This document shows positions 5,578-25,536 of a stretch of 25,536 bases of DNA, piece after piece; position 1 is the first letter of the stretch; each line of letters starts with the position of its first letter. The notes beneath the pieces are model-generated. The model did not search any database, was not told the DNA's origin, and saw nothing but the letters and a program-made list of their open reading frames with translations. Made by a program: the position numbers and the translations under genes. The stretch spans positions 1 through 25,536 of the forward strand of contig JAKQEQ010000102.1 in the NCBI GenBank assembly GCA_029556545.1. The letters run 5' to 3'. This stretch comes from Candidatus Hydrogenedentota bacterium (GTDB lineage Bacteria; Hydrogenedentota; Hydrogenedentia; Hydrogenedentales; JAGMZX01).

Positions 5578-7221
5578 TTACAGGGAGTCTTCCCAGTTCG
5601 CGGGCATGTCCAGTTGTTGTACCCAGACGCGTTCCTGGCCTACGTTGCGGTTCCAGTTGGTTGCCCAGACGATTTTCGAGCCGTCGTTCGCGATGGTCCC
5701 GTGCGTTTCCTCCCAGTAGGCGCCGGTTGTGCCATAGACCTTGGCCAGGTAGAAGACGCGCGGGGCGGCGGGGTCCAAGTACACCAGCGTGACCGTGCGG
5801 TCGAGCCAATTCTGCTCGGGTTCACCGAGGGGCGTTTCGGTGGATACGACGGCGTAGCCGGGGTGATTGCATGAAATGTGCACACCGCCGCGGAAACCGA
5901 TTGGGGAATTGTCGTAGAAGAGACGCATGAGCGGCACGCGATTCGTGCCCGCGTAGTCGCCACCGGCTTCGAGAATGGGCTGCGTCGCCCAATCAATCGG
6001 GATGAGGTCGATATAGTCCGTGCGCACGTTCTGCATCACGACGACCTCGTTTCCGTTCGTATCCAGGCCGACGTCCGCGTGGGCCGTGGAGTAGTCGAGG
6101 CGATTGAACTGCGTAAGGTGGCGGTTGGCCATGGTCAATCCCGTGAGGTTGCCGCCGTTGTCCCATTCACCGCCGATGAGCACGAAGTTTCCGAGGGCGG
6201 ACATGCCGACCCAGTCGATGATCGATTCGCCGGTGGATAAGGGGAGCAGCCCGAGTACTTGGTCCGGCGTCCGGTCCCAGCAGAAGACATAGCGGATTCG
6301 GTAGTCGTCATTGCTTCCCTGAATCGCGAAGGCCCAGTACCGTTTGTCTATCGAGGACTCGCCTTCGTCGCGCATCGTGATTCGATAGAGATCGGGCTGC
6401 GCCGCGAGGAGCGGGCCGATTGTCGGGTCTTGAGCAAAGTCTTTCACCGTGGTTTCGGCGCCGGTCGCGACGTTCACCCGGATGATGCGAAACGCGATGT
6501 TGCCCCAGATGAGGTCCGGGTCCTGCGGGTCCCAGCGCGGCTCCTCGATGTTGAGCGTGGCGACCAGATTGGCCGGCGTGTCATACGGGACGGAGGCGGT
6601 GCGATAGACGCGCCAATCGCCGGTGGGGAGATGCGTCAGGAGGATACGCGACCCGTCCGCGTTGAACGGGTCAAAGCGCGAGTACTCGTGGCGCATGCCT
6701 TCGGTCTGCGTAACGCGGCGCTGGCGCGTGCCAAAGGCCACGTCGTTCACGTAAGCGCCCGGCTGCGGGGCCGCCGCCGCCGGAAGCGCGTAACGCGGGT
6801 TGTCCCCCGAAAGCGGGTCCGGTACCTCCAGGAAGCCGGCAAACTCGCCCTCGCCCTCGCCTTCGCCCTCGCTTGGGCTTACGACGACATACCGTGTTTC
6901 GAAGCGGGTGTCGCTGCCGTGTTGCGTGGTCACTGTGAGCCCCACGTCATAGCTGCCGGGGTTTGGATACGTGTGCGCCGGGTGCTGCGCCAAGCTGGAG
7001 GCGCCGTCGCCGAAGGTCCACGACCAGGACGTGATGGCGCCGTCGCCGGGATTCGACGCGTCGGTGAATTGGACCGCGAGCGGCGCCGGACCGGACCGGG
7101 GCGCGGCGGTGAAGGCGGCGGTGGGGCCTTTCTTTGGCGGACAGCCCGCCATACCGGCGAGGCAGAGTGCGGACACAACGGCAGCAATCAGCGACGTGGA
7201 ACGGTTTCTCATGCGGCACAT
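5578..7221 (-). CDS. PKD-domain lipoprotein with TolB-like beta-propeller
   Basis: The ATG at 7221 has GGAG seven bases upstream and lies 34 bases below a good promoter. A more upstream in-frame ATG at 7290 overlaps the -35 box and is rejected. The protein has 547 residues. A hydrophobic segment ends in a lipobox, MAGC, with the modified Cys at residue 27. Residues about 32-115 form a PKD domain (AAFTAAPRSG, VQFTDAS, WTFGDG, HTYPNPGSY). A short Glu-Gly linker follows, then about 420 residues that read like a TolB/oligogalacturonate-lyase-type propeller (SRFDPFNADGSRILLTH, WDPQDPDLIWG, GGVHISCNHPGYAVVSTE). No catalytic set can be named. Predicted to be membrane-anchored and periplasmic or surface exposed; ligand unknown. 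It converges on the propeller gene ending at 5543, with only 34 bases between the stops. Confidence 0.85.
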   Translation of the reverse strand: MCRMRNRSTSLIAAVVSALCLAGMAGCPPKKGPTAAFTAAPRSGPAPLAVQFTDASNPGDGAITSWSWTFGDGASSLAQHPAHTYPNPGSYDVGLTVTTQHGSDTRFETRYVVVSPSEGEGEGEGEFAGFLEVPDPLSGDNPRYALPAAAAPQPGAYVNDVAFGTRQRRVTQTEGMRHEYSRFDPFNADGSRILLTHLPTGDWRVYRTASVPYDTPANLVATLNIEEPRWDPQDPDLIWGNIAFRIIRVNVATGAETTVKDFAQDPTIGPLLAAQPDLYRITMRDEGESSIDKRYWAFAIQGSNDDYRIRYVFCWDRTPDQVLGLLPLSTGESIIDWVGMSALGNFVLIGGEWDNGGNLTGLTMANRHLTQFNRLDYSTAHADVGLDTNGNEVVVMQNVRTDYIDLIPIDWATQPILEAGGDYAGTNRVPLMRLFYDNSPIGFRGGVHISCNHPGYAVVSTETPLGEPEQNWLDRTVTLVYLDPAAPRVFYLAKVYGTTGAYWEETHGTIANDGSKIVWATNWNRNVGQERVWVQQLDMPANWEDSL

Positions 7222-7261
7222 GGCGCGTCTCCAGTAGGCCCCCCCCGAGTTCCCACGCCTC

Positions 7262-7290
7262 ATTATCGCACCGCGCCTGTCCCACGGCAA
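7262..7290 (-). promoter_or_regulatory. Sigma70-type promoter of the PKD lipoprotein gene
   Basis: On the minus strand TTGCCG (7285-7290) and GATAAT (7262-7267) are separated by 17 bases. Transcription would start near 7255, about 34 bases above the ATG at 7221. A run of eight G (plus-strand C, 7239-7246) lies in this short leader. Confidence 0.6.
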
Positions 7291-13495: not shown

Positions 13496-14182
13496 ATGAA
13501 CACGAATCAGGGACAACACCGCCGAACCCGCAAGACAGGCGACTTCCCTATCGAGGTCGTCCGGTTGCCTGGCCGTACCCCTTTCCGTGAAGCATACGCG
13601 CTTCAAGTTGCCCGGCGGGACGCCGTGGCGGGCGGGGAGGCCGTGAACGCGTTGTACCTCCTCGAACACACTCCGGTGATTACCATGGGCCGCGGCGCCA
13701 AGCCCGAGCACCTTCTGTTCGCGCCGGACGCGCTTCGCGCACGGGGCATCGAGGTATGCGCGACGGACCGCGGCGGCGACGTGACCTATCATGGCCCGGG
13801 CCAACTCGTGGCCTATCCGATCCTGGACTTGGGCCGGTGGCGGTGCAGCGTAGGCCGGTACCTGCGGATGCTCGAGGCGTCGGTAATTCGCTTGCTCGCG
13901 TCTTACGACATCGAAGGGGAGCGTGTCGAGGGGTACACCGGCGTGTGGGTAGCGGGCGCGAAGGTGGCGGCAATTGGCATTGCCGTACACCACTGGGTCA
14001 CCTTCCACGGCGCGGCAATCAACATCGATCCGGACATGGGCCATTTCGAGCTAATTGTCCCTTGCGGCATCGTCGATAAGCCGGTAACGTCGATGAAGCG
14101 GCTTCTCGGCGTCGCGCCGCCGCGGGGGGAGGTCGAGGCCCGCTTTGAGGCGGCATTCCTTCAGACCGTCACCGGCGAGTAG
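13496..14182 (+). CDS. lipB: Octanoyl-[acyl-carrier-protein]:protein N-octanoyltransferase LipB
   Basis: LipB moves the octanoyl group from octanoyl-ACP to lipoyl domains, the first step of endogenous lipoate synthesis, in the cytoplasm. The 228-residue protein carries the family signature RGGDVTYHGPGQ (residues 92-103), GYTGVWV, and the catalytic pair Lys156 (AKVAAIGI) and Cys190 (PCGI), followed by KPVTSM. It has full family length. ATG 13496 is taken as the start; a TTG at 13436 is in frame but lies in the TGGAC repeat element. No clear Shine-Dalgarno sequence precedes it. The partner lipA is not in the window. It follows the amidase gene on the same strand, separated by the inverted repeat array. 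Confidence 0.95.
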   Translation: MNTNQGQHRRTRKTGDFPIEVVRLPGRTPFREAYALQVARRDAVAGGEAVNALYLLEHTPVITMGRGAKPEHLLFAPDALRARGIEVCATDRGGDVTYHGPGQLVAYPILDLGRWRCSVGRYLRMLEASVIRLLASYDIEGERVEGYTGVWVAGAKVAAIGIAVHHWVTFHGAAINIDPDMGHFELIVPCGIVDKPVTSMKRLLGVAPPRGEVEARFEAAFLQTVTGE

Positions 14183-14209
14183 GGGCCGTCAGCATCCTTG
14201 AAGAAAGAG

Positions 14210-14252
14210 GCGCCCACGCCTTCGGGAGTGATGGTAACTCGGACGTGGGCGC
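14210..14252. repeat. Inverted repeat downstream of lipB
   Basis: GCGCCCACG (14210-14218) is matched by CGTGGGCGC (14244-14252). Inside, GAGT and ACTC can pair around a 7-base loop. It lies 28 bases after the lipB stop and between convergent genes, so it may stop transcription, but no T-run follows. The rest of 14253-14365 shows nothing recognisable. Confidence 0.5.
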
Positions 14253-14365
14253 GCAAGCGACTCCCGGCGGTTACCGTGTGGGGGGTTAGGCTTCGGCTCT
14301 GCCAACAGACAGCCCAAAGGCACGGCCCCGCCTGGAAAGCCGCTGTTCTTGGCGCGAAAACGCGA

Positions 14366-19329: not shown

Positions 19330-22300
19330 ATGTGGCGGTGTCGTGAAAATGCAGCGGACGCTGAGAGAACGATAGGAAAAGGCACGTCTCTTTTCAGCGC
19401 CCGCCATAGCCCGCCTCAGCGTTCTCGGAGTTTCTTCCTTCGTGTATCTATTGCGTTAGGGTTGACGGCCGCAATGGCCTGCCAGTTGGCCCTTGGGCAA
19501 GCGGCGCGGGATGCGGGGGCTGAAGCGCGGAGCGCCGCCCTCGAAGCCCTGATCGACGGCGCGGAACGGGGAGCGATCCCCGGCAATCTGCGGATCATCA
19601 ATGATCGGGACGGGTACGTGCGCGCCATTGCCGCTCCCCCCTCTTCGCATTTTCCCGTGACCGCGGGAAACGGCGTCTCACCGGCAGACAAGGCCCGGGC
19701 GTTCTTGAGGCAGTACCGCGCGCTATTCATGGACGATTCCGCGACCGTGGATTTCCTTGCCACACGGACGAAAACACGAGAAAAACACCGGTACGTCCGC
19801 CTACAGCAGACCTACGCGGGAATACCGGTCTTCGGCGCGGAACTGACGGTGCAACTGGACGATGCGAACGAGGTGGTGTATGCATTTGCGGACATCAAGC
19901 GTCGCACCGACGATCTTGGCGGCGGAGGCATCGCGCTTTCTCCCACCCTTTCCGCCGCGGATGCGCAGTCACGGGCGCTCGAACTGGCTTGGCCTGTTCC
20001 CGCGGGTCAACGCGGGGAGGACCAAGCCGAGAAGGGTGAGCCGGAACACCAGGTGCGCGGCTGGCTCCTCGGGCGGGATCGGGCGATTCCGTTGGAGGCC
20101 GGCCCGGCTACGCTTATGATCTACGCGCCGGAGGTTGTGGGGTCCGGGGGCCCGGCGCGCCTCGTCTGGCAAATGGTGCTCAATGCTGTGGATGATCCGG
20201 CGGTGGCGGAGTCGGTGTTGGTGGATGCGCATTCCGGGGAGATCGCGTTCCATTATCCGCTGGTCTATACCGCGTTGAACAGGCAGATCTATGATGCGAA
20301 CAATACAGCCAACGATCCCGGCACGCTCGTGCGTTCGGAGGGCGGCGCGCCGGTTGGTCTCGTGGACGCGAACAACGCTTACGACTATTTCGGGCACACG
20401 TATGCGTTTTATAGTTCGGAACACGGTCGCGACAGCATCAACAATGCGGGCATGACCTTGAGCGGCACGGTGCGGTACTGCCCGGAAGCCCCGTGCCCTT
20501 ACGCCAACGCTTTCTGGAGCGATTCGACGAATCGCATGTATTTCGGCGAGGGGTACGCGAGCGCGGACGACGTGGTCGCGCATGAATTGACGCACGGGGT
20601 GACGAGCTATGAGTCCAATCTGATCTATTTCAATCAGTCGGGCGCGATAAATGAATCTTTTTCCGACATGTGGGGGGAATGGGTCGATCAGACGAACGGC
20701 GCGGGAAATGACGCGCCCGGGGTGAAATGGTACATGGGCGAAGACCTGCCGATCGGCGCGATCCGTAACATGGCGAACCCGCCGGAATTTGGGGATCCCG
20801 ACCGGATGGGAAGCCCCTATTACAGCGCGAACATAGCGGACTTGGGCGCGGTCCACTGGAACAGCGGTGTAGGCAATAAATTGTGCTACCTCCTCACGGA
20901 CGGCGACACGTTCAATGGGCGCACGGTCACCGCAATGGGGATCGGGTCGACCGCGGACCTGTTCTACGAATGCCAGGCGAACCTGTTGACCAGCGCTTCG
21001 GATTACATGGATCTCTATGTTCTCCTCCTGCAGGCCGCCAATACCTTCGGCTATACACAGATGCAGACGAACAATCTGGTGGAAGCCTGTTTGGCCGTTG
21101 AACTCGGCGTGCAGCCCAATAAGCTGGCGGTCGGGGATTATGCAGGTTACTGGGGTTTCCCCATGTATACCCTGTACCACGATTCCCGGACGCAGTCCAT
21201 CTACCTGGCGAGCGAGATTGGGAGAAGCGGCAGGATTACGGCCGTGTCGCTGTATGTCACCACCGTGCCCGGGCAGCCGCTCAATAACTGGACCATCCGC
21301 ATGAAGACCACGGCGCTCAGTGCGTTCCCGGCGCCGGCGTCCATGGACGGCACGGGATGGACCGTCTGTTACCAAGCCAATGAAACGGTGAGTTCGACGG
21401 GACAGCGCACGTTTACGTTCTCGACGCCGTTCCAGTATGACGGCGCGAGCAACCTCATGATCGATTTCAGCCATAATAACACCTCCTATACCACCGCCGG
21501 CAGCTGTCTTGCGTTTGTCCCCGGAGGCTACCGGAGCGTTTACGCCTACAGCGACAGTACAAACGGGGATCCCCTGACGTGGTCGGGCACATCCTCGCCG
21601 TCGAAGACGCGGTCCACCGCGGTCCCCTGCGTAGCCCTCACGTTCAGCGCGGCAAGCGCGACCGTGACCAACGTGAGCAGCGTGCATGCGAACGGTTCCT
21701 TCACGGTGGGCGAGGTTATCGACATTGACGTTACCTTTGCCGTGCCGGTAAGCGTGACGGGCACGCCCAGGCTGGAGCTTGAGACAGGCAATATCAACCG
21801 CATGGCGACTTATCTGAGCGGCAGCGGGGGCGCGACGCTCACGTTCCGATACACTGTGGCCTCGGGCGACACCTCGCCCGATCTGGACTACACGAATGGC
21901 GGCGCGCTGCGGTTCAACGGAGGAACGATCAAGGATGTTTCGACACAGACGCTGGCAGTCCTCACCTTGCCCGCGCCCGGTGCGTCGGGCTCACTTGGCG
22001 CGAACAGGGCCATCGTCATCGACACCGCGGCGCCGACGGTATCGAGCGTGACGAGCAGTCTGGCGAATGGGACATATCCGGTGGGCCAGGTGGTCCCTGT
22101 GCAAGTCACGTTCGATGAGGCGGTCGTGTACATGGCCGGTACAGGGGTGGCGCAACTGCAATTGGAGACGGGAGTGACGGATCGGCAAGCCCCGTATGCC
22201 GGCGGAACCGGAACCGCGGGGCTTACGTTCAATTACACGGTTCAGCCGGGGGACATGTCGCCCGACCTCGAGTATTTCAGCACGGGCGCGCTGACGCTGA

Positions 22301-23301
22301 CGGGGACCGCCACCATCAAGGATGTCGCCGGCAACAATGCGGTGCTTACGTTGCCGGGTCTGGGTACGCCGGCCTCGCTTGGCGGGAGCAAGGACATCGT
22401 GATAGATACGACGGGGCCGCCGGGCACGGTCGATGCCGCCGCGAGCCCGCAGCCGGACCGCGACCTCCCGAACTGGAACGACACGGAAGCGGAGAAGATG
22501 AGCGTGCTGAAATTCCGCGTCAGCGATCAGGGAGTTGACGGCTGGCCCACGCTGATAGACCGAATTACGGTCTCCGTCTCCGGCACGGCGGGCAATGCGG
22601 CGAACGACATCGCCTGGGCGGAATTGCGCGATGCGTCGGTGCGCGTGGCGCTGGCGGCGTCCATCTCGAATACGCAGATTATCTTCGGCGCGCCGCCTAA
22701 CAGCGACAGCGTGGCCCAACTGACCACCGTTGCGGACAATGCGTTTGTCGAGTACACGGTCTATATCTATCTGAACACCGTGCTGATCGGGCAGCACGAC
22801 GAAACGTACGTATTCGCCATCGACGAGGACGGCGTCGGCACGGACGCCGGGAACAGTTCGCCGATGGGTCTGAACTCGGGCGCCGTGACGCCGGTGACTG
22901 GGACGCTGGTGATCCCGGCGCTGGGCATTACGGTGACGCCGGACGTGTGGAATATCGGGGCGAGCCCCCTCAGCCACGTCGTGACGGCCGGGCCCTTCAC
23001 GGTGCAGAATACAAGTACGGTGGCGGGGGACATTTCGATCAAGGGCGGCAACGGCAGCAACGGCTGGACGCTCGAGAACGCCGTTGGGCTGAACGCTTTC
23101 AAGGTCGAGGCGGACAAGGGTTTCAACGACAGCTATGAAACGACGCTTTCCACGGGCGAGCAGTCGTTCGCGGTGAATGTCCCCGTCTCGGGTGCGGAGA
23201 CGCTCGGGCTGCGCTACAGCGGCCCGAGCGGCGACAGCTTCGGCGCGGGGTTGCCGCAGGATTTCACGATTACGTTGAAGGTGTCGGCCTATGCGCCGTA
23301 A
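19330..23301 (+). CDS. Secreted thermolysin-like (M4) metalloprotease with Ig-like and small-subunit-like C-terminal modules
   Basis: ATG 19330 is set by the promoter just upstream; the leader before the hydrophobic signal core (about residues 38-56) is unusually long. Residues about 65-300 form the FTP/PepSY propeptide (RYVRLQQTYAGIPVFGAELT). The catalytic domain has HELTH with His418, Glu419 and His422, third ligand Glu442 in NESFSD, and His509 in VHWNSGV; the spacing matches thermolysin. Next come a beta-sandwich at about 610-772 (SIYLASEIG, LNNWTIRMK) and two Ig-like units at about 773-1020 (VDVTFAVPVSVTGTP, FRYTVASGDTSPDLDY). A linker region leads to a final module, 1197-1323, that repeats the next gene's mature protein (VTPDVWNIG ... 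FTITLKVSAYAP). The 1323-residue protein should be exported and self-processed. The last module may tether it to, or build it into, the structure formed by the small protein downstream. Confidence 0.9.
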   Translation: MWRCRENAADAERTIGKGTSLFSARHSPPQRSRSFFLRVSIALGLTAAMACQLALGQAARDAGAEARSAALEALIDGAERGAIPGNLRIINDRDGYVRAIAAPPSSHFPVTAGNGVSPADKARAFLRQYRALFMDDSATVDFLATRTKTREKHRYVRLQQTYAGIPVFGAELTVQLDDANEVVYAFADIKRRTDDLGGGGIALSPTLSAADAQSRALELAWPVPAGQRGEDQAEKGEPEHQVRGWLLGRDRAIPLEAGPATLMIYAPEVVGSGGPARLVWQMVLNAVDDPAVAESVLVDAHSGEIAFHYPLVYTALNRQIYDANNTANDPGTLVRSEGGAPVGLVDANNAYDYFGHTYAFYSSEHGRDSINNAGMTLSGTVRYCPEAPCPYANAFWSDSTNRMYFGEGYASADDVVAHELTHGVTSYESNLIYFNQSGAINESFSDMWGEWVDQTNGAGNDAPGVKWYMGEDLPIGAIRNMANPPEFGDPDRMGSPYYSANIADLGAVHWNSGVGNKLCYLLTDGDTFNGRTVTAMGIGSTADLFYECQANLLTSASDYMDLYVLLLQAANTFGYTQMQTNNLVEACLAVELGVQPNKLAVGDYAGYWGFPMYTLYHDSRTQSIYLASEIGRSGRITAVSLYVTTVPGQPLNNWTIRMKTTALSAFPAPASMDGTGWTVCYQANETVSSTGQRTFTFSTPFQYDGASNLMIDFSHNNTSYTTAGSCLAFVPGGYRSVYAYSDSTNGDPLTWSGTSSPSKTRSTAVPCVALTFSAASATVTNVSSVHANGSFTVGEVIDIDVTFAVPVSVTGTPRLELETGNINRMATYLSGSGGATLTFRYTVASGDTSPDLDYTNGGALRFNGGTIKDVSTQTLAVLTLPAPGASGSLGANRAIVIDTAAPTVSSVTSSLANGTYPVGQVVPVQVTFDEAVVYMAGTGVAQLQLETGVTDRQAPYAGGTGTAGLTFNYTVQPGDMSPDLEYFSTGALTLTGTATIKDVAGNNAVLTLPGLGTPASLGGSKDIVIDTTGPPGTVDAAASPQPDRDLPNWNDTEAEKMSVLKFRVSDQGVDGWPTLIDRITVSVSGTAGNAANDIAWAELRDASVRVALAASISNTQIIFGAPPNSDSVAQLTTVADNAFVEYTVYIYLNTVLIGQHDETYVFAIDEDGVGTDAGNSSPMGLNSGAVTPVTGTLVIPALGITVTPDVWNIGASPLSHVVTAGPFTVQNTSTVAGDISIKGGNGSNGWTLENAVGLNAFKVEADKGFNDSYETTLSTGEQSFAVNVPVSGAETLGLRYSGPSGDSFGAGLPQDFTITLKVSAYAP

Positions 23302-23350
23302 CTCACGGAGAATTCGCGATGAGACAATCCAGGCATAACTTCGGGAATCG

Positions 23351-23368
23351 CCCGCCCTGAGAAGCGGG
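23351..23368 (+). other. Small hairpin between protease and small-subunit genes
   Basis: CCCGC (23351-23355) pairs with GCGGG (23364-23368) across an 8-base loop in the 121-base gap. There is no T-run. It could act as a partial attenuator or message-stability element, but it is short and may be chance. Confidence 0.25.
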
Positions 23369-23422
23369 ACTTCGGCGTGCAACTTGAGGGTGCAGGGAAC
23401 AACATTCAGGAGGAAGAAGACG

Positions 23423-23893
23423 ATGAAAAGGGCAATTTGGACGATGGCGCTGGCAGCATGCCTGATGGGCGTGGCTTGGCAGGCGCGGGCCGCCGACACG
23501 GACACGATTACGGTAACCGTGTCGTTGGAGTCGGTCATCTCGGTGTCGGTGACACCGAATACGTGGAACATCGGCGCTGTCAGCCTGAGCGGATCGAGCG
23601 GGCCGGCGTCGTTCACGGCGACGGTGGGCAACACAGCGACGAAGCTCGAGATCATGGGGTCGAACGGTGCTGGCGGCTGGGCGATCGGCGCGACGGCGGG
23701 CGCGGACCAGTTCGTTGTCGCCGTATCGTCTCCGGCGATCACGTTGACGACCTCGTATCAAACACTTGACGCGAGCGTGGCCGCGTATGGGAACAAGGCG
23801 TTTGATCTGACCTACTCCGCGCCCACGAGCGACACCAAGGGTGCGGGCGTGGACCAGAGTTTCGCAATTACGCTGAAGGCCAGCGCGCCGTAA
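23423..23893 (+). CDS. Small secreted beta-rich protein, paralogue of the protease C-terminal module
   Basis: ATG 23423 has AGGAGG nine bases upstream, the strongest ribosome site in the window, which suggests high expression. The 156-residue product has a signal peptide (KRAIWTMALAACLMGVAWQ) with likely cleavage after the ARA at 21-23. The mature part of about 132 residues is rich in Val, Ser, Thr, Ala and Gly and has no Cys, as expected for a beta-sandwich. Landmarks are VTPNTWNIG (43-51), NGAGGW (81-86), LTYSAPTSDTKGAGVDQ (129-144) and FAITLKASAP at the end. The same landmarks occur in the same order in residues 1197-1323 of the upstream protease. The family is not firmly recognised. The TWNIG and ITLxxSAP elements recall camelysin/TasA-like or WxL-domain proteins. 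Probable structural or surface subunit. Confidence 0.85.
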   Translation: MKRAIWTMALAACLMGVAWQARAADTDTITVTVSLESVISVSVTPNTWNIGAVSLSGSSGPASFTATVGNTATKLEIMGSNGAGGWAIGATAGADQFVVAVSSPAITLTTSYQTLDASVAAYGNKAFDLTYSAPTSDTKGAGVDQSFAITLKASAP

Positions 23894-23937
23894 CGCGCGG
23901 ACAATAAGAAGGAACGAAGGAAAGGAGCGCTCGTAGC

Positions 23938-24852
23938 ATGAGGCGCTGCTGTCGGGAGATCGTATGCTGCGCGTGCCTGCTGGCTGCGGCCCGCGGGGCG
24001 GACGCCGCGAGCCTGAAGGTCGCGCCGGCGCGGTTTATCGTGCACAACGTTACGCCGGGCACGGTCTACGATATCCACGCCGAGACGGGCCTGCGGCTGA
24101 CGGTCTACAACGACGATGAGGTCAGCAGGACGTGGTTGCTCTCGACGCATCGTCCGTCGGAGCGCGGAACGTGGGAGACGGGTTACGCCGAGATTCCGGA
24201 TGCGCATTGGTGCTGGCTCGACCGGAATGAAGTCACGGTGGAACCGAACGGCAAGGCCTACGCGCATCTTTTTCTTCAGGTCCCGGCGGAAGAGCGGTAC
24301 TACAACCAGCAGTGGGTCGTCACGCTGGGCATCGAGGGCAAGCGCAACGCGGGCGGGGTTGCGCTGGCCGCGGATGTGCGCATGCAGATCGAGACGAAGA
24401 GCAAAGAAGACGTATCGGCGCGGCCCGACGGACCGCTCGGAATCAGGCCGAGTCTCCTTCGCTTCGAAGACGCCGCGCCGGGAGGCGAAGCGGCGGCGGA
24501 CGTGACGGTCTTCAACAACAGCGCCGCGCCCGGCAAATACACGGTGGTCCCGTTGTTCGGGCAGCCGGGCATCGAGCCGAGGACTTACCTGACGCACGGC
24601 TTCGAGGCCATTGCGGACAAGGACTGGCTTGTCTATGAATCGGTGGTCTCCGTGGAGCCCGGTGGGACCGCGTCGCTGCGGGTCGTGCTCAAGATTCCCG
24701 GCGACGCAGCGCACTACGGGAAACGATGGGAGGAGTTGCTGTTGTTCCGGACAGAGGACGGTTTGTCGCGGTTCGTGCGCGTGCAGGTTGAGACGGTACA
24801 GCCGGGAGCGGCTGCGCCACAAGGTGAACGCGAGGCGACGGTTTCAGAATAA
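23938..24852 (+). CDS. Secreted protein with two tandem Ig-like units (WxL-interacting/chaperone-like)
   Basis: ATG 23938 has AAAGGAG ten bases upstream. The 304-residue product has a short signal peptide (to about residue 24). It then consists of two related halves, about 25-155 and 165-288. Each half has an opening strand and turn (KVAPARFIVHNVTPG; IRPSLLRFEDAAPGG), a middle strand with Asn (LTVYNDD; VTVFNNS), and a closing block of Trp-Leu, VEP-x-G, VP/IP and Tyr-x-x-x-Trp (residues 93-126 and 230-264). This is the layout of Ig-fold partners such as DUF916/WxL-interacting proteins and periplasmic chaperones. Unlike DUF916 proteins it has no C-terminal membrane helix. It lies 44 bases after the small subunit gene and overlaps the next by one base, so it belongs to the same operon. 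Role inferred: partner or assembly factor for the small subunit. Confidence 0.8.
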   Translation: MRRCCREIVCCACLLAAARGADAASLKVAPARFIVHNVTPGTVYDIHAETGLRLTVYNDDEVSRTWLLSTHRPSERGTWETGYAEIPDAHWCWLDRNEVTVEPNGKAYAHLFLQVPAEERYYNQQWVVTLGIEGKRNAGGVALAADVRMQIETKSKEDVSARPDGPLGIRPSLLRFEDAAPGGEAAADVTVFNNSAAPGKYTVVPLFGQPGIEPRTYLTHGFEAIADKDWLVYESVVSVEPGGTASLRVVLKIPGDAAHYGKRWEELLLFRTEDGLSRFVRVQVETVQPGAAAPQGEREATVSE

Positions 24853-25536
24853 TGTCAAGGCAACGTCACATAGCGCCGATGGTTCTGGTCATGGGCGTCC
24901 TCTTTCTGACCGCGTGGGGAGAGGTCGCGGCGGAGACAACGGCCGTGATCAGCGTGTCGGTGCTGTTCGAGGGTCCGCCGTCGCGGGTCTTGACGGTCGT
25001 CATCGAGGGCACGGGCCAGACGGACCCGTCCGGGAGCCCGGCCCCGGGCGTCGAGCACATCTATGCCGATGGAGATACTGCCTTCGTCCAGGCGTTCTAC
25101 GGGACGGACGGCTGGGCATTCAGCCACTGGAGCGGCGACCTCGGCGGCGCGGACCCGCAGCGCTATCGGATCAACCTCCCGATGGATCAGGACCGGACGA
25201 TCACGGCGCATTACGTGGCGGCGGACTGGACGTTGACGCTGGACTTCACGGGCGACGGATCGCTGTGGCCGGGCGCGGGCGTCTACGGCTTCGTAGACAT
25301 GGGCGAGGCCGAATTCGGCGCGAACCTGCTGAGCGGTGGCGACGCCTTCGACCAGTGGGTCGGCGACCTGCCGGCGGGCCGTAATCCGCAGGAGACCCAC
25401 CACCGGTTCGCGATGACGCAGGACCGCACGTTGACGGCGGTGTTCACTCCGGCCGACTGGTCGCTGACGATCAACGGGATCGTGGGCGGCGGCTCGGCAT
25501 TCCAGGACCCGCAGCCGGGCGTGTACGGCTACCTCG
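24852..25536 (+). CDS. Secreted InlB-type repeat protein (3' partial)
   Basis: The frame starts at the ATG in TAATG, sharing one base with the previous stop, and stays open to the window end (228 residues visible), so translation is probably coupled. An N-terminal signal peptide (MVLVMGVLFLTAWGEVAA at about residues 10-27) is followed by repeats of about 75-85 residues. Each ends in a WSGDL/WVGDL-type turn and a strand such as DQDRTITAHYV or TQDRTLTAVFT, typical of divergent InlB B-repeats (Flg_new/InlB-like beta-grasp). A third repeat begins at NGIVGGGSAF. Conserved GVYGF/GVYGY blocks recur. Such repeats occur in large surface or extracellular proteins. The rest of the protein, including any anchor, lies beyond the window. 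Confidence 0.8.
   Translation, partial: MSRQRHIAPMVLVMGVLFLTAWGEVAAETTAVISVSVLFEGPPSRVLTVVIEGTGQTDPSGSPAPGVEHIYADGDTAFVQAFYGTDGWAFSHWSGDLGGADPQRYRINLPMDQDRTITAHYVAADWTLTLDFTGDGSLWPGAGVYGFVDMGEAEFGANLLSGGDAFDQWVGDLPAGRNPQETHHRFAMTQDRTLTAVFTPADWSLTINGIVGGGSAFQDPQPGVYGYL

Follow-up and report, generated by a model that had tools for sequence, protein, structure and literature searches.

A four-gene cassette of Hydrogenedentota that may encode an usher-free, donor-strand surface fibre with an exchangeable enzyme tip

Why should a secreted protease end in a copy of the small protein encoded by the next gene? This question is raised by the distal part of a 25,536-base contig from a 6.1 Mb metagenome-assembled genome (MAG), the whole of which was analysed and is referred to here as the window. 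The original prediction described a secreted module of three components at 19330-24852. Its three genes are present as described, but the module extends further, since a fourth gene begins at 24852; the locus is thus a four-gene cassette on the forward strand at 19330-25536, in the order tip, small, two-Ig, fourth. All four proteins have signal-peptide-like segments at their N-termini, and the fourth gene starts inside the stop codon of the two-Ig gene, an overlap of one base which suggests a single operon. The features of the locus are as follows.

19330..23301, + strand: putative tip gene, a secreted M4 metallopeptidase of 1323 aa (start codon uncertain) with a C-terminal putative acceptor domain; Pfam FTP, Peptidase_M4 and M4_C
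20284..21090, + strand: M4 catalytic domains (residues 319-587), an exchangeable effector module by Pfam match and by its replacement in relatives
22918..23298, + strand: putative acceptor (pilin-like) domain of the tip protein (residues 1197-1323), 38% identical to the small subunit, with an alignment gap where the donor strand is shortened relative to that protein
23408..23413, + strand: ribosome-binding site (AGGAGG) preceding the small subunit gene, from the sequence
23423..23893, + strand: small, putative stalk subunit, 156 aa with signal peptide; BLASTP, AF2 pLDDT 86, pilin-like fold matches
23501..23527, + strand: putative N-terminal donor strand DTITVTVSL of the small subunit (residues 27-35), conserved in 7/7 genomes, pLDDT below 50
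23938..24852, + strand: two-domain PapD-like protein of 304 aa, putative periplasmic chaperone; alignment, AF2 pLDDT 84, PapD-like fold matches
24852..25536, + strand: fourth gene, cut by the contig end, encoding a putative donor-only base or anchor protein with InlB-type repeats; Flg_new_2 Pfam match, intact homologues in six relatives
24939..24968, + strand: TAVISVSVLF, putative donor strand near the N-terminus of the fourth protein, the sole conserved segment of fourth proteins

A domain shared by the protease and the small protein

Residues 1197-1323 of the protease had been proposed to be a copy of the small protein, and the two regions do align: the small protein matches the C-terminal 125 residues of the protease with 38% identity over 125 aa (BLASTP, E 6e-21), and the sequence landmarks first noticed are present in both. 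The Smith-Waterman score of the pair is 191, compared with 37 +/- 6.5 (maximum 75) for 1000 shuffles, and 13 columns, including both tryptophans, are invariant in an alignment of 14 domain copies from seven genomes. The M4 assignment also holds. FTP, Peptidase_M4 and M4_C each exceed their Pfam cut-offs, and the protein has both the catalytic and C-terminal domains of M4 peptidases and an intact HExxH...E arrangement, with HELTH at residues 418-422 (DNA 20581) and the NESFSD glutamate downstream. The strong ribosome site of the small gene is an AGGAGG lying 9 bases upstream of the ATG. Just 5' of this site, in the gap between tip and small genes (window 23320-23400), a long hairpin is predicted (-25 kcal/mol, no T run), which may stabilise the downstream messenger.

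The small and two-Ig proteins are unnamed by Pfam and NCBIfam. Matches to DUF5853, FixG_C and StaE were weak and were dropped, no Peptidase_M73/camelysin match came up when the 14 domains were compared with Pfam as far as E 1, and sequence profile searches of the PDB gave no useful match, the hits to chagasin and sialidase having E near 1. Elsewhere in the window, an opposite-strand match at 14134-14328 was weak (E 1e-3, one stop) and was put down to chance, and other large proteins of the contig feature Ig_3/I-set and PKD domains (1-2244 and 5578-7290).

Distribution of the cassette and its exchangeable modules

Scans of genome contigs and viral contigs with single sequences gave no match, whilst a profile scan of contigs found four loci, all from Candidatus Hydrogenedentota; a genome search assigns the window genome to the order of these relatives. 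Within Hydrogenedentota, where the evidence comes from MAG assemblies throughout and genomes may be incomplete, matches to the domain profile were confined to 7 of 68 genomes and numbered exactly two in each; those to the two-Ig profile were confined to the same seven, one in each. The survey of related genomes that had been suggested as a check found the order large, small, two-Ig, fourth kept in all seven cassette-bearing genomes. The best-conserved part is the two-Ig protein, at 43-62% identity to the window copy. The cassette is patchy across families, making loss or transfer likely.

The large protein, by comparison, varies in everything but its tail. Each cassette-bearing Hydrogenedentota genome encodes a single tagged large protein, whose leading module is M4 in two genomes (G000, G021), S8 in G001, M6 in G009 and an SBBP beta-propeller in G016; that of G007 has no named domain, and the G062 gene is cut by its contig. 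Beyond the phylum, the modules include one papain-family protease and two DUF362 proteins. The same C-terminal domain always follows, whichever module precedes it. A domain tree shows repeated copying of the tail onto large proteins: that of G007 groups among small subunits, and that of G009 adjoins its own small subunit.

To broaden the survey, the Ig profile was applied to about 320 genomes outside the phylum, of which 15 were positive. Twenty loci were inspected around these matches, and 12 of them, from 11 genomes, have an acceptor-domain protein beside the Ig gene; the remaining eight, with an Ig protein and no recognisable acceptor-domain protein, were not counted as cassettes. More distant forms of the cassette are thus present in at least 11 genomes outside Hydrogenedentota. 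Nine of the outside loci have a fourth protein with the strand described below. The iterated acceptor profile drew in generic Ig-like domains, and only matches adjoining the Ig partner were used. Plasmids gave no match, and literature searches of open-licence papers returned no description of the cassette. One outside genome (G218, L072:6795-10025) has three successive Ig-partner genes, among which a divergent small subunit is encoded, possibly a multi-fibre locus. Several outside Ig-partner genes adjoin a gene judged by eye to encode a PorV/PorQ-like outer-membrane protein (FEDIGVGARPxxMGxAF; L087:7833-9000, L082:5453-6700, L080:4567-5742); the one that was tested lacks a Pfam match.

Candidate donor strands and predicted folds

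The small subunits of the phylum start with [DG]TI[ST]VTVSL, a strand conserved in all seven genomes. A related segment, TAxIxVSV or close to it, directly follows the signal peptide of the fourth protein in all homologues, which are otherwise diverse, featuring TSP3, Big_12, Ig or InlB repeats. In the tails of the large proteins the strand is shortened (G000, G001, G021) or missing, and the fourth proteins of this phylum have no groove domain. Across 16 loci, the small and fourth strands are more similar within loci (mean score 25.6) than between loci (19.9; permutation p 0.0007); the difference persists for 12 loci (p 0.034) and for eight loci representing one per family (p 0.013), and a shuffled control scored 14.0 +/- 0.9. 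SEDIYCTV, for example, is present in both strands of a locus; in L081 the two strands are nearly identical (small ALSEDIYCTVLI, fourth ALSEDIYCTVMI), and in L084 they read TDTITITIS and TESITITIS. Among loci beyond the phylum the strand differs between lineages, and the small and fourth copies tend to co-vary. Short β-strands alternating T, V, S and I are easily alike, and the N-terminus of the Ig protein, used as a control, reached 21-23 in two of seven loci; because the donor windows were delimited by eye, we regard the within-locus similarity as good, and not as final, evidence.

The C-termini of the fourth proteins fall into several types. Within the phylum, three have a hydrophobic C-terminal stretch with basic residues after it, two close with an SLSELLR motif and one has neither feature, whilst several fourth proteins outside it end in type IX sorting domains (CHU_C, FlgD or Por_Secre). 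Secreted Hydrogenedentota proteins (L019:12100-12259, L023:11200-11448) end in repeated Dx[NP]xDxxISLSELLRxIQFxNSGGYxC motifs, which resemble dockerin-type calcium loops and possibly represent an undescribed surface or sorting domain. An exosortase gene shares a contig with the G007 cassette (G007:C125:4128-4886, L090). Exosortase was rejected as an explanation for all anchors, since none was detected in G000 or G001.

The AF2 model of the small subunit (pLDDT 86) folds over residues 13-133, whereas residues 1-12 are mostly below 50 and the strand is unpaired in the monomer. The underlying alignment was shallow, and the strand is missing from half of its 10 rows, so that low confidence in this segment would be expected on that ground too. 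A Foldseek search of the PDB gave no match below 1e-3, the best E being a weak 2e-3, but chains of chaperone-usher pili fill about 42 of its top 50 rows; VIA Z-scores reach 8.6, and are less selective, lying in a range where common arrangements also score. The shared domain looks pilin-like and may be an incomplete, grooved Ig fold. The two-Ig architecture claimed for the protein downstream is recovered by AF2 (pLDDT 84), and its structural matches, at Z about 9-11, comprise ASH/HYDIN axonemal domains, the WxL-interacting proteins (WxLIP) 9i1y and 9i25, and CsuC, EcpB, CfaA, FimC and PapD. It is thus predicted to have a PapD-like fold, matching the periplasmic chaperones at fold level (Z about 10) with no PapD Pfam match.

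Of the analogies first offered for the locus, the closest fit is with fibre systems that have their own chaperone, given a pilin-like small domain and a PapD-like partner. We consider it probable that the locus encodes an enzyme-tipped cell-surface fibre whose subunits are joined by donor-strand exchange. The small subunit, which seems to possess both groove and strand, could polymerise head to tail and would form the stalk. The protease, or the module that replaces it, would be the distal tip, like FimH, as its groove is paired with a degenerate or missing strand that would restrict it to the distal end. The suggestion that the fused copy anchors or recruits the protease to a polymer is refined accordingly: the copy resembles the pilin domain of a tip subunit, which accepts a strand and donates none. 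The fourth protein, with a strand and no groove domain in this phylum, could occupy the proximal end only, and would be the base whose C-terminus fixes the fibre to the cell, by a membrane helix and basic tail or, elsewhere, by a type IX sorting domain. The two-Ig protein would cover the groove in the periplasm before polymerisation, as the natural chaperone for an open groove.

Several observations argue for this fibre: the tails are shortened or missing exactly in the strand segment; the domain and its Ig partner co-occur strictly and in fixed order in seven of 68 genomes; the tail is constant although the module in front of it changes; fourth proteins have hardly anything in common apart from the strand; and the small and fourth strands are most alike within loci. 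From these features we infer strand exchange, polymerisation, chaperone action, export and surface display. In sequence, such a fibre would be indistinguishable from a short complex that contains a single small subunit.

Related systems and alternative readings

The nearest functional parallel is with the chaperone-usher pili (type 1, P, Csu), with which the cassette shares, by predicted fold, a PapD-like two-domain partner and may share a pilin-like subunit with an N-terminal donor strand and a two-domain tip whose acceptor pilin domain has no usable donor strand of its own. The cassette differs in that its putative tip bears proteases or other modules, a putative donor-only anchor is encoded, and the two-Ig and small proteins match no Pfam pilus chaperone or pilin family. 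Moreover, the outer-membrane usher (PF00577) was detected in none of the seven cassette-bearing genomes of the phylum and none of the 15 outside it, these 22 being MAGs that may be incomplete, while an E. coli control was positive. The cassette would work like a chaperone-usher pilus, but with no usher detected it is not a member of that class, and export across the outer membrane would have to use a route other than the usher. The TasA/TapA filaments of Bacillus also assemble with no usher; the N-terminal segment of TasA intercalates into following protomers, and the accessory protein TapA donates its own N-terminus to TasA, a precedent for a donor such as the fourth protein (PMC10151520). 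Those filaments differ in their domain, have neither a two-Ig chaperone nor an enzyme tip, and do not use TapA as an anchor that bears variable domains (PMC10151520). Active proteases also reside on extracellular filaments in the Vpr fibrils (PMC10657474) and the proteolytic flagellins (PMC5595980), where the protease is, or lies within, the repeating subunit, whereas here it would be the tip on a separate stalk.

The alternative that survives best, although we judge it unlikely, is a diderm analogue of the WxL clusters of Firmicutes: a surface complex that presents the enzyme without polymerising, in which partner strands complete the shared domain and no fibre forms. WxL clusters comprise a small WxL protein, a large protein with a C-terminal WxL domain, a two-Ig WxLIP and often an LPxTG protein (PMC9772566, PMC10599100). 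This parts list equals that of the cassette, which likewise combines a domain-only small protein, a large protein ending in the domain, a WxLIP-like two-Ig partner and, frequently, an anchor. The parallel, also drawn in the original prediction, thus holds for architecture: the Enterococcus faecium WxLIP structures 9i1y and 9i25 rank with the best matches to the two-Ig protein, at Z about 11, and W-x-[ILV] occurs at both conserved tryptophans in all 14 phylum domains. It does not hold for family. The Leu is not strict, the tryptophans are partly replaced in relatives outside the phylum, and neither the WxL domain PF13731 (no match over cut-off in 13 genomes, none at the cassette) nor DUF916 was matched over cut-off at the cassette, which is therefore not filed as a WxL cluster. 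A WxLIP combines DUF916 and DUF3324 with a membrane helix, but by eye the two-Ig protein has no apparent membrane helix, its C-terminus included; the hosts are Hydrogenedentota and other non-Firmicute-like MAGs, and the modules of the large proteins include enzymes. The strand common to small and fourth proteins, degenerate or absent in the tip, is also foreign to the described WxL scheme. The dual W-x-[ILV] of this phylum may reflect a distant relation to WxL clusters.

Less likely still is a role of the tail as a tag that marks exported enzymes for secretion or sorting, with the small protein as a stand-alone carrier or cofactor and the two-Ig protein as its chaperone. Like type IX sorting domains, the tag does form the C-terminal end of secreted enzymes that are unrelated to one another, and type IX domains and SprA occur in some cassette-bearing genomes (SprA in five of the 11 outside genomes tested). 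Sorting tags are usually found on many proteins, however, and each Hydrogenedentota genome has one; the tag is on the tip, but the type IX domains that were found are on fourth proteins; and the strand common to small and fourth proteins is left unexplained. SprA was not detected in the seven Hydrogenedentota genomes, and type IX secretion was accordingly rejected as the export route in the window's lineage. Finally, that the small protein and tail are ordinary paralogous Ig-like adhesion domains joined by duplication, their strands alike by chance as in other β-rich secreted proteins, is very improbable: Ig-like domains are abundant in these genomes, the domain was re-copied repeatedly and the short strands are of low complexity, but this reading sits poorly with strict co-occurrence and order in seven genomes, recurrence outside the phylum and strands that are alike within loci.

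A donor-strand fibre with an enzyme tip thus remains our preferred reading of this locus. More tentatively, and somewhat short of probable, usher-free donor-strand surface fibres with an interchangeable enzyme tip and a dedicated donor-only anchor may be a widespread undescribed class in several lineages, whose folds relate them to chaperone-usher pili as well as to WxL clusters, between which they perhaps form a link. To our knowledge, all donor-strand fibres described in didermic bacteria are pili that serve adhesion and depend on an usher. If the reading proposed here is correct, such fibres would be a general display system in distant bacteria, with the adhesin replaced by proteases or other modules, and the question of how they cross the outer membrane would be raised anew. 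The reading would also offer WxL clusters, which are poorly understood, a mechanism that can be tested, and would account for the way in which uncultured polymer degraders hold their enzymes on a pole near the cell.
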